Assembly: GCA_013001045.1 (NCBI GenBank) | Contig: JABDNG010000036.1 | Coordinates: forward strand, 17,526-81,525 | Direction: 5' to 3' | DNA: 64,000 nucleotides | Source: Woeseiaceae bacterium | GTDB lineage: Bacteria; Pseudomonadota; Gammaproteobacteria; Steroidobacterales; Woeseiaceae | In this document: positions 15,055 to 18,314 of the stretch, one piece after another | How the letters are laid out: every line of letters starts with the position of its first letter | How positions within the stretch are numbered: the first letter of the stretch is position 1 | The notes under the pieces: model-generated | Databases searched by the model: none | Told to the model about the DNA's origin: nothing | Seen by the model: only the letters and a program-made list of their open reading frames with translations | Position numbers and translations under genes: made by a program

Positions 15055-15064
15055 AGACGCGGCG

Positions 15065-15700
15065 GTGAACAGGGATAAACGCACGGCGATCTTCAGGGCA
15101 TTACAGGAGCGCATGCCGGCCCCTGATACAGAACTCGAGTACGAGAACCCTTTCGAACTGCTCATTTCCGTCATATTGTCGGCGCAAGCAACCGATATCA
15201 GCGTCAACAAGGCAACGGCAAAACTGTTTCCGGACGCGCGCACGCCGGAATCGATTCTCGCGCTGGGTGTCGACGGACTGAAGCCCTACATTCGCACCAT
15301 CGGACTTTTCAACAGCAAGGCCGAGAACATCATCAAGACCTGCCGGATTCTAGTCGATGACTACGACAGCGAGGTGCCACGATCACGGGCGGCACTCGAA
15401 TCGCTACCCGGTGTAGGACGCAAGACGGCCAACGTTGTACTCAACACCGCTTTCGGCGAGCCGACGATCGCCGTCGACACTCATATCTTCAGGGTCTCGA
15501 ACCGTACCGGCATTGCGAAGGGAAAGACGCCGCTCGAGGTCGAAAAACGGCTGCTGCGTTCGACGCCCGATGAGTTCAAGAAGGATGCCCATCACTGGCT
15601 CATTTTGCACGGTCGATACGTGTGCAAGGCCAGAAAACCGCTGTGCGGCGAGTGCCCCATTATCGAGTGGTGCGAATACCGAAAAAAGGAACTGCCGTGA
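15065..15700 (+). CDS. nth: Endonuclease III (GTG start proposed)
   Basis: LSAQATDISVNKATAKLF, LPGVGRKTANVVLNTAFGEPTIAVDTH, C-terminal CKARKPLCGECPIIEWC 4Fe-4S cluster. Confidence 0.95.
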   Translation: MNRDKRTAIFRALQERMPAPDTELEYENPFELLISVILSAQATDISVNKATAKLFPDARTPESILALGVDGLKPYIRTIGLFNSKAENIIKTCRILVDDYDSEVPRSRAALESLPGVGRKTANVVLNTAFGEPTIAVDTHIFRVSNRTGIAKGKTPLEVEKRLLRSTPDEFKKDAHHWLILHGRYVCKARKPLCGECPIIEWCEYRKKELP

Positions 15701-16122
15701 TCTTCGGCCAGGACCGAGACGAGTTGCGCAAGATGTATGCGACAGCGTGGCGCAAGCGCTCTGAGCGAGCCCCGCTGTCCCCTCTCGAGGCCCAGATTGC
15801 CGCCGTCGTCGAGTGGCATCCCGAATACCATGAGGATGTTACGAGTGACGATCTGGAACGCGAGTACACGCCCGATGGTGGAAGAACGAATCCGTTTCTT
15901 CACATGGGCCTCCACCTCGGCATTCGCGAGCAGGTATCGACCAACCGCCCGGCCGGCATCGCGAAAATCCACGAGACACTGGTTGCGCAGGCCGGCGACG
16001 CGCATGCCGCCGAGCACCAAATGATCGAATGCCTTGCCGAGACGCTGTGGGAAGCACAAAACGCCAATACCGCCCCGGATGAGCAAAGATACCTGCGCCG
16101 CCTGTCCCGTCTGACGCGATAA
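15697..16122 (+). CDS. DUF1841 family protein
   Basis: VIFGQDRDELRKMYATAWRKR, EWHPEYHEDV, NPFLHMGLHLGIREQVSTNRPAGI pattern of DUF1841. Confidence 0.85.
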   Translation: MIFGQDRDELRKMYATAWRKRSERAPLSPLEAQIAAVVEWHPEYHEDVTSDDLEREYTPDGGRTNPFLHMGLHLGIREQVSTNRPAGIAKIHETLVAQAGDAHAAEHQMIECLAETLWEAQNANTAPDEQRYLRRLSRLTR

Positions 16123-16183
16123 TCCGATGTAATAAACACAGGCCATCGGAGGTCTGATCAACAAACGCAGGAACGGAATAAGC

Positions 16184-17038
16184 ATGCACGACAAGCAGTC
16201 ACAATACCCTGTCCAGGGTGCGGGCCTGGGCCTGCGGCGGCCAATTGCCAACAAACTGATGGCATCACCGCCAGACGACGTCGACTTCATGGAGGTCGCG
16301 CCGGAGAACTGGATACATGTCGGAGGAGCGCTGGCGAAAAAGTTGCGCTTTTTCACCGAGCGATATCCCTTCCTGATTCACGGACTGTCATTATCGATCG
16401 GCGCGCCTTCGCCCCTCAATGAGCAACTGGTCCGGGACATCAAGGGATTCATGGCGGAGCACGATATTCGCCTGTACTCCGAGCACCTGAGTTATTGCGG
16501 CGACGATGGACAATTATACGATCTGATGCCCATTCCTTTCACCGAGGAAGCGGTCGCTTACGTGTCCAGACGCGTCCGCCGCGTGCAAGATATTCTGGAG
16601 CAGCGAATAGCGCTCGAGAACGTGTCATTTTATGCGCCGCTGGCTACGTCAATGAGCGAAAAGGACTTCTTGCTCGCCGTCCTGGAAGAATCGGATTGCG
16701 ATCTCATGCTCGACATCAACAACATCATCGTTAATAGCATCAATCATCGCTACGACGCGAGAACGTTTCTTCAGCAAATGCCGGCAGACCGTATCCGCTA
16801 TTTTCATTTGGCGGGGCATTCCATCGAGGCTGAAGACCTTCGCGTCGATACGCACGGCAACCCCGTCGACGAGCAGGCCTGGCAGCTTCTCGAGGAAGCG
16901 TATGCGCTATTCGGCCCGGTACCCACGCTGCTCGAGCGCGACTTCAATTTCCCGCCCATGGAGGAGTTATTGGACGAGGTCCGTCGCATCAAGCAGCTGC
17001 AGGCAGCGACGGCCAAACGGCAGGCTGCCAATGCCTGA
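16184..17038 (+). CDS. hvfB: DUF692 / MNIO-type (multinuclear non-heme iron oxidase) protein, HvfB/BufB-like RiPP maturase
   Basis: GAGLGLRRP, DFMEVAPENWIHVGG, HGLSLSIGAPSPLN, SEHLSYC, LALENVSFYAP-type segment, LLDINNIIVNSINH-type segment, HLAGH, LLERDFNFP. Confidence 0.88.
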   Translation: MHDKQSQYPVQGAGLGLRRPIANKLMASPPDDVDFMEVAPENWIHVGGALAKKLRFFTERYPFLIHGLSLSIGAPSPLNEQLVRDIKGFMAEHDIRLYSEHLSYCGDDGQLYDLMPIPFTEEAVAYVSRRVRRVQDILEQRIALENVSFYAPLATSMSEKDFLLAVLEESDCDLMLDINNIIVNSINHRYDARTFLQQMPADRIRYFHLAGHSIEAEDLRVDTHGNPVDEQAWQLLEEAYALFGPVPTLLERDFNFPPMEELLDEVRRIKQLQAATAKRQAANA

Positions 17039-17813
17039 GGATCCGGATTTTCAAGCCAGGCAATACGCATTTGCGGCGCACCTGCGTGATCCTGAGAATG
17101 TCGCAGCGCCCGAAGGGATCGAAGACCGCCGCCTCGCGATCTATCGCAAGTTGTTCTTCAACAATCTCTACAATCTGCTCGGCAATATGTTCCCGGTGCT
17201 AAAGAAACTGCTCAGCGACGATCGGTGGCGCGGAATGATTCGTCAGTTCATGCAGCACCACAAAGCCCAAACGCCCTACTTTCTCAAGCTTCCCGAGGAG
17301 TTTCTGAGCTTCCTTGAACACACCTACGAGCCGGCAGCGGACGAACATCCGTTCCTGCTGGAGCTCGCGCATTACGAGTACGCCGAACTCGCCCTGTCCG
17401 TTTCGACCGAGGAAAACGATCTTTCAGGAATCGATCCTGATGGCGACCTGCTCAGCGAGATACCCGTCAAATCGGTACTGACCTGGGCCTATGCCTACCA
17501 TTACCCCGTACATCGTATTTGTCCGGAGTTCCTGCCCACCGAACCCGCAGAGCAGCCCGTGTATCTCGCGCTTTATCGCAACAGTAATGACAAGGTCCGT
17601 TTCCTGGAACTCAACGCGGTTACCGCGGGGCTGCTCGACGCCGTAGAAAACAATCGCGAAGACAACAGCGGTGAGGCGCTGTTGCGAACACTCGCCGCAA
17701 GGATCAACTATCCCGACGTTGACGCTCTGATCGGCCACGGTGCCGATGCCCTGAACGAAATGCGACGACTTGAGATCTTGACCGGCACCCGACCTGCCGA
17801 CAGAAGGAGATAG
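17031..17813 (+). CDS. hvfC: DUF2063 domain protein, HvfC/BufC-like partner of the MNIO enzyme
   Basis: QARQYAFAAHLRDPENVAAPEGIEDRRLAIYRKLFFNNLYNLLGNMFPVLKKLL; overlaps the hvfB-like gene by 8 nt. Confidence 0.86.
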   Translation: MPEDPDFQARQYAFAAHLRDPENVAAPEGIEDRRLAIYRKLFFNNLYNLLGNMFPVLKKLLSDDRWRGMIRQFMQHHKAQTPYFLKLPEEFLSFLEHTYEPAADEHPFLLELAHYEYAELALSVSTEENDLSGIDPDGDLLSEIPVKSVLTWAYAYHYPVHRICPEFLPTEPAEQPVYLALYRNSNDKVRFLELNAVTAGLLDAVENNREDNSGEALLRTLAARINYPDVDALIGHGADALNEMRRLEILTGTRPADRRR

Positions 17814-17816
17814 ATT

Positions 17817-18314
17817 ATGAATTTGCTCATTCGACTGAAGAATCAAGTCATCGATATTCTCAATCCCGCCGGTGACTGGTTTGCGTTATTGCCGATCCGG
17901 CTGCTCATGGCCTACGAATTCGGCCGCGCCGGCCTGATGAAATTCAATGGCAATAACTGGTTTGCGAACGTGCAGGACAACTTTCCGTTTCCCTTCAACG
18001 TCGTTCCCGTCGAAATCAGCTGGTTTCTTGCCACCTGGGCCGAAATCCTCGGCGCCGCGGGCCTGGTGCTCGGGTTGTTCACACGATTCTGGGCGCTGAG
18101 TCTTATCATCCTGACGATCGTTGCAATTTCCGGCGTTCACTGGCCCGATGACTGGAGCAGCCTCGCAGAACTGTGGAAAGGCTACTCGGTTTCGGATAAA
18201 GGCTTTGGCAATTATCGTATTCCACTGTTGTTCCTCGTCATGTTGATCCCGCTGGTATTCAACGGTGCCGGCAAGCTCAGCCTTGACCATGTACTGGCGA
18301 AGAAGCTCGGCTGA
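17817..18314 (+). CDS. hvfX: DoxX family membrane protein (HvfX-like)
   Basis: 165 aa, multi-TM, LPIRLLMAYEFGRAGLMKFNGNNWF; 3 nt after the hvfC-like gene. Confidence 0.8.
   Translation: MNLLIRLKNQVIDILNPAGDWFALLPIRLLMAYEFGRAGLMKFNGNNWFANVQDNFPFPFNVVPVEISWFLATWAEILGAAGLVLGLFTRFWALSLIILTIVAISGVHWPDDWSSLAELWKGYSVSDKGFGNYRIPLLFLVMLIPLVFNGAGKLSLDHVLAKKLG

Follow-up and report, generated by a model that had tools for sequence, protein, structure and literature searches.

The window analysed here, a 64,000-nucleotide stretch of DNA from a Woeseiaceae MAG (2.6 Mb, 146 contigs, 78% complete, 2.55% estimated contamination), carries an operon for an MNIO enzyme, a partner protein and a DoxX-type protein without a precursor peptide gene beside it, which raises the question of what substrate these proteins act on. 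Woeseiaceae are common marine-sediment bacteria. Exploring the locus (Table 1), we found that hvfB and hvfC overlap by 8 nt and that 3 nt separate hvfC from hvfX; 61 bp lie between the DUF1841 stop (16122) and hvfB, and 123 bp between the hvfX stop and an APC permease gene (18438), exactly the packing described in the initial annotation. HvfB, HvfC and HvfX passed their equivalog cut-offs and the BufB model (NCBIfam) scored the window MNIO at 263 bits, below its cut-off of 310, indicating that the operon is Hvf-type and not Buf-type; of the earlier label "Hvf/Buf-type" the Hvf half stands and the Buf half does not. HvfC also matched structure 3DEE (E=1.1e-9). One mark of an HvfABC system is hvfA directly upstream of the MNIO gene, a position held here by the DUF1841 gene; in the wider MNIO-peptide families an adjacent upstream precursor is usual, not universal (PMC12452194). 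No Cys-rich ORF was found in the 61-bp gap, and in either flanking gap, antisense included, the lone find was an antisense ORF of 49 aa that contains few Cys and extends into the permease gene. ORFs in these gaps are non-conserved, in agreement with the earlier statement that neither gap encodes a plausible precursor. The gaps are much alike in congeners, indicating that they are real and no assembly accident. A literature search on DUF1841 found no papers.

Table 1. Features of the hvfBCX locus (window positions) and of the hvfA locus (L108, on contig C134 of the same genome).
Feature	Position	Strand	Evidence or remark
nth (endonuclease III)	15062..15700	+	named from translation; start approximate; upstream neighbour conserved in order (tblastn)
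DUF1841 gene	15697..16122	+	PF08897 E=1.6e-52; gene order conserved
ECF-type promoter GTAATAA-N15-GGTC, putative	16129..16154	+	61-bp gap upstream of hvfB
hvfB, MNIO enzyme	16184..17038	+	PF05114 E=2.5e-100; NF003818 413.6 bits, cut-off 360
hvfC, DUF2063/RRE-type partner protein	17031..17813	+	PF09836 E=3.2e-26 plus PF22106; NF050145 283.1 bits, cut-off 142
hvfX, DoxX-type membrane protein	17817..18314	+	PF07681 E=3.1e-17; NF050144 140.8 bits, cut-off 80
ECF sigma factor gene	L108:2579-3094	-	upstream of hvfA, same strand
DUF3379 gene, probably anti-sigma	L108:1851-2582	-	PF11859 E=7.7e-29
hvfA	L108:1498-1785	-	95 aa, Sec-type leader, five EGSCG cores

Aligning the window HvfB to structure 3BWW, we found that N180, D222 and H224 match by motif the site-3 residues N175, D242 and H244 of H. 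influenzae HvfB, and that R18, R19, D253 and F254 match by motif the specificity and catalytic residues of FonB; the essential site-3 residues and the roles of the FonB residues are those given in PMC13419390 and PMC13097082. N180, D222 and H224 are invariant in 110 loci, a set chosen partly by peptide patterns, and their presence speaks against decay through loss of metal ligands, which the initial annotation had considered. The dN/dS of hvfB versus congeners was ~0.05 in three unsaturated pairs, a rough figure because synonymous sites are near saturation, and that of hvfX was also low. HvfB thus looks to be under purifying selection and active.

Searching for exact EGKCG DNA patterns, we obtained no match in the genome of the window or in its genus, a negative that first suggested true absence of a precursor. 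This reading was wrong: the genus uses EGSCG, which accounts for the negative. Outside this genus, the same exact search revealed precursors in seven genera of the order, each on a contig differing from that of hvfB. From precursors of other families within the order we made a profile, A1, which identified one precursor in the window's own genome (C134:4555-4839, minus strand; E=4.9e-24) and likewise a precursor in each genome of the set that has a close hvfB. The peptide, MSEKKIIKPVALAVGAALAGTFAISGAVNAESIDSPFSMSTLSVGYMLGTTEGSCGGDAGEKEGEGSCGEGSCGEKGEKEGEGSCGEGSCGSDTT, has five Cys and a leader called Sec-type by eye. It passed the repeat-domain model NF050137 (31.5 bits versus a cut-off of 19.5) and fell below the stricter HvfA equivalog NF050188 (20.7 versus 95 bits); a corrected leader-motif search also matched it, although many of the one-mismatch matches of that search are chance. 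The genome search for a precursor proposed with the initial annotation, made here with HvfA and DUF2282 models, ended with one HvfA on C134. The genome carries one MNIO gene and one HvfA gene; with 78% of it recovered in the MAG, the missing sequence could hold a second precursor. No DUF2282 (Buf1) protein scored above cut-off in this 78% complete genome, the best match having E=0.5; HvfA, with its EGxCG repeats, is a different class from the DUF2282 bufferins with which it had been lumped. Cores of 21 congeners comprised 139 EGSCG and 6 EGKCG, and those of nine precursors from other families 62 EGKCG and 10 EGSCG. FonBC, a related enzyme, accepts Ala, Thr and Arg where the core has Lys, and does not accept Phe or Glu, according to a passage of PMC13097082 that makes no mention of Ser at this position. 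Our literature search found no report of an EGSCG core tried with an HvfB-type enzyme; we predict that such enzymes accept EGSCG cores. A second HvfA copy in one genome of family f5 (G028; L094:1498-2124) carries at its end a GlyGly-CTERM-like sorting tail (TIGR03501, 15.7 bits against a cut-off of 15.5) and is possibly a surface-anchored captophorin precursor.

The hvfA gene on C134 stands behind genes for an ECF sigma factor and a DUF3379 protein, and is followed in this genome by tag. The sigma-DUF3379-hvfA arrangement recurs in the genus and in families f3, f4, f9, f11, f14 and f16, with tag undetected in some, and in family f5 sigma and DUF3379 precede one of two hvfA copies. DUF3379 was confined to hvfA-bearing genomes of the set (30/33). 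Among 274 genomes drawn from the class, several DUF3379-sigma pairs adjoin an MNIO gene or an HvfA peptide (L223, L224, L225, L234, L240 and L242), indicating that the link is wider than this order. DUF3379 is probably the anti-sigma of the sigma factor in the hvfA operon; our literature search on DUF3379 with a sigma factor found no papers. At one of these class-wide loci (L234:1492-3678) hvfA and hvfB are contiguous, the hvfA cores are EGSCG, and the DUF3379-sigma pair is divergent from both genes. The system there is unsplit, and it shares its regulator type and Ser core with the split one.

The 61-bp gap before hvfB, in which the initial annotation saw no plausible precursor, contains a promoter motif that ties the hvfB and hvfA loci together. 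GTAATAA-N15-GGTC is the best-conserved stretch of this gap in the congener alignment, and it stands with identical spacing just before the sigma gene of the sigma-DUF3379-hvfA operon; throughout the genus it was found upstream of both hvfB and sigma. The 2.6-Mb genome of the window has three such sites versus one for a reversed-pattern control, and four genomes (G001, G009, G012 and G024) have no site besides the two at the hvf loci. Scoring 31 hvfB-bearing genomes by hand for the motif at hvfB and for DUF3379, we found both in 26, DUF3379 but no exact motif in two (G034 and G037, which also carry hvfA), neither in three (G031, G035 and G038) and no genome with the motif alone (Fisher p=0.002, shared ancestry ignored). 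These occurrences suggest that the C134 sigma factor reads GTAATAA-N15-GGTC promoters. The third site (C25; L210:1376-2123) is just upstream of a signal-bearing AhpC/TSA-family gene, either a regulon member or a chance match.

The order nth-DUF1841-hvfB-hvfC-hvfX recurs among genomes of the genus and in most families of the order that have hvfB, and the named relatives are mostly Woeseiaceae MAGs. DUF1841 is immediately upstream of hvfB in most Woeseiales and was not found there in families f9, f12 and f15; the gap before hvfB in the genus is mostly 34-155 bp. In other gammaproteobacteria, namely Thiohalobacter, Thiogranum and Ectothiorhodospiraceae MAGs, the place between DUF1841 and hvfB is taken by hvfA; one would therefore expect a precursor exactly in the Woeseiaceae gap. 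Many other gammaproteobacteria carry the same HvfB subfamily directly behind an HvfA of the same leader type, and in family f15 (G038) hvfA and hvfB are contiguous in the ordinary way. An HvfB tree, built for the direction of change between contiguous and split, was weak at its root and in its deep forks. Across 40 genomes, hvfA and a close hvfB were both present in 32 and both absent in seven (shared ancestry ignored), the sole exception being a fragmented assembly of 470 contigs (G002) with hvfA and no detected hvfB. Two 1.5-Mb congeners, G004 and G011, are without hvfA, DUF3379, hvfB and hvfC, and retain ~100 bp with remnants of the hvfB start between an intact promoter and hvfX (L211:2395-2640 and L212:2350-2600). 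These scars indicate that the hvfA and hvfB loci were lost together, and the survival of hvfX suggests that it has a use of its own.

Given these data, we consider it very probable (about 0.85) that the window operon belongs to a coregulated split HvfA (captophorin/oxazolin) system under ECF-sigma control, with the peptide made in trans. This supports the suggestion of a precursor encoded in trans; the initial annotation had held that a precursor elsewhere with matching regulation would make this a split Hvf system, and the hvfA gene on C134 is such a precursor. In the mechanism we propose, envelope, metal or oxidant stress would release sigma from DUF3379, and the freed sigma would fire its own operon, yielding HvfA, together with hvfBCX via the same GTAATAA-N15-GGTC promoter. 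HvfC would bind the HvfA leader and present it to HvfB, whose iron cluster would turn the Cys of the EGSCG repeats into 5-thiooxazoles. The peptide would be exported by Sec and bind excess copper in the periplasm, and HvfX would act in the membrane. That HvfBC modify the C134 HvfA, that the product is a thiooxazole and that it has a role with copper are inferred. An extension of this mechanism, which we regard as unlikely, is that HvfA signals too, its modification or metal state feeding back on the DUF3379 anti-sigma so that it would be a copper/oxidant sensor as well as a buffer; such signalling would explain the placement of hvfA in the sigma-DUF3379 operon, and the maturation enzymes would be an output regulated apart from it.

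The other suggestion of the initial annotation was a different or precursor-independent substrate. On this reading hvfBCX would have another protein or a small molecule as target, and the C134 peptide would be unrelated or otherwise modified. The operon itself has no precursor and hvfX outlives hvfABC in G004 and G011, so that at least hvfX may act alone. However, the genome has one MNIO and one HvfA, the two co-occur across the order and share a promoter, and the same HvfB subfamily stands right behind a same-leader HvfA in many other gammaproteobacteria; this suggestion is thus unsupported, and we judge it quite unlikely. It is highly unlikely that the operon is decaying, a relic left when hvfA was lost from its slot: the dN/dS values of hvfB and hvfX are low, the ORFs are intact, and both the tight packing and the promoter are conserved, all of which argues against it, even though Thiohalobacter, Thiogranum and others hold hvfA in the DUF1841-hvfB slot and G004 and G011 show true decay. 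A MAG of 146 contigs with 2.55% estimated contamination could also have acquired the sigma-DUF3379-hvfA contig from elsewhere, leaving a genome truly without a precursor; we find this extremely unlikely, as the locus, usually with tag downstream, is present in nearly all congeners and the congener loci carry the promoter motif of the window hvfB itself. We therefore rejected the contamination and decay readings on the congener loci, selection, intact ORFs and promoter conservation.

The closest known systems are the captophorins, 5-thiooxazole RiPPs represented by H. influenzae HvfA-HvfBC (oxazolin) and fontiphorin FonABC. The split HvfA system shares with them the HvfB, HvfC and HvfX equivalogs, a precursor with a Sec-type leader and EGxCG repeats, the site-3 ligands and the Arg/Arg/Asp/Phe residues. 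It differs in that the precursor is at another locus, that its cores are EGSCG and not EGKCG, and that an ECF sigma-DUF3379 pair is in the precursor operon. The bufferins Buf1 (DUF2282) and Buf2 with BufBC-DoxX have in common with it the MNIO, DUF2063 and DoxX genes and a metal-stress theme, whereas the window MNIO is under the BufB and over the HvfB cut-off and the genome shows no DUF2282 above cut-off; stand-alone bufferin precursors are reported in PMC12452194. As described in PMC3511200, the Caulobacter sigma-F locus comprises sigF and CC3254-3257 (DUF2282-MNIO-DUF2063-DoxX), and the ECF sigma autoregulates and drives the MNIO operon via GTAACC-N16-CGAA. A shared ECF-type promoter motif likewise stands before sigma and the MNIO operon here, whereas in Caulobacter the precursor is contiguous, the negative regulator is DUF1109 and not DUF3379, and the promoter letters are other. 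The neisserial rpoE operon NMB2140-2145, according to PMC2893595, encodes an ECF sigma, an anti-sigma and a DoxX-family protein. It resembles the split HvfA system in placing an ECF sigma, an anti-sigma (a predicted one here) and a DoxX gene in a small regulon with a GTAA-type -35; unlike it, the neisserial operon is single and contiguous, with the cysteine-dependent anti-sigma NMB2145 and the promoter GTMAGBWTT/CGTCTAAH.

Split precursors were anticipated in the literature; what is new is the order-wide conserved split, the shared promoter, the DUF3379 link, the EGSCG core and the co-loss scars, and the system apparently represents known chemistry in an unusual layout. RiPP genome-mining leans on a precursor beside its enzyme, and a published survey (PMC12452194) counts about 4,000 main-cluster MNIO enzymes next to which no precursor from the major families is recognised. 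One such orphan was resolved here by combining a profile search with a shared promoter, and the same approach could be applied to further orphans. The data also propose a function for DUF3379, as anti-sigma of MNIO-peptide regulons, and the natural scars where hvfX outlives the peptide make a separate DoxX role testable. Because the Woeseiaceae hosts are common in marine sediment, the peptide may matter for copper handling there.

Several related loci deserve mention. At L167 and L201, ~0.5-1.8 kb upstream of hvfB, insertion of a different ECF sigma and an RskA-like protein (by eye) separates DUF1841 from hvfA, apparently an independent recruitment of ECF control to this place. A contig labelled "Halobacteria archaeon" (L161) carries a gammaproteobacterial-type nth-hvfABC locus and is probably a mis-binned MAG contig. 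The hvfC matches at L008 (G024) are split over two frames, a possible frameshift or assembly error. One congener, G015, carries four MNIO genes; for three of these, identity to the window's is only 34-39%, and they probably belong to further MNIO systems.
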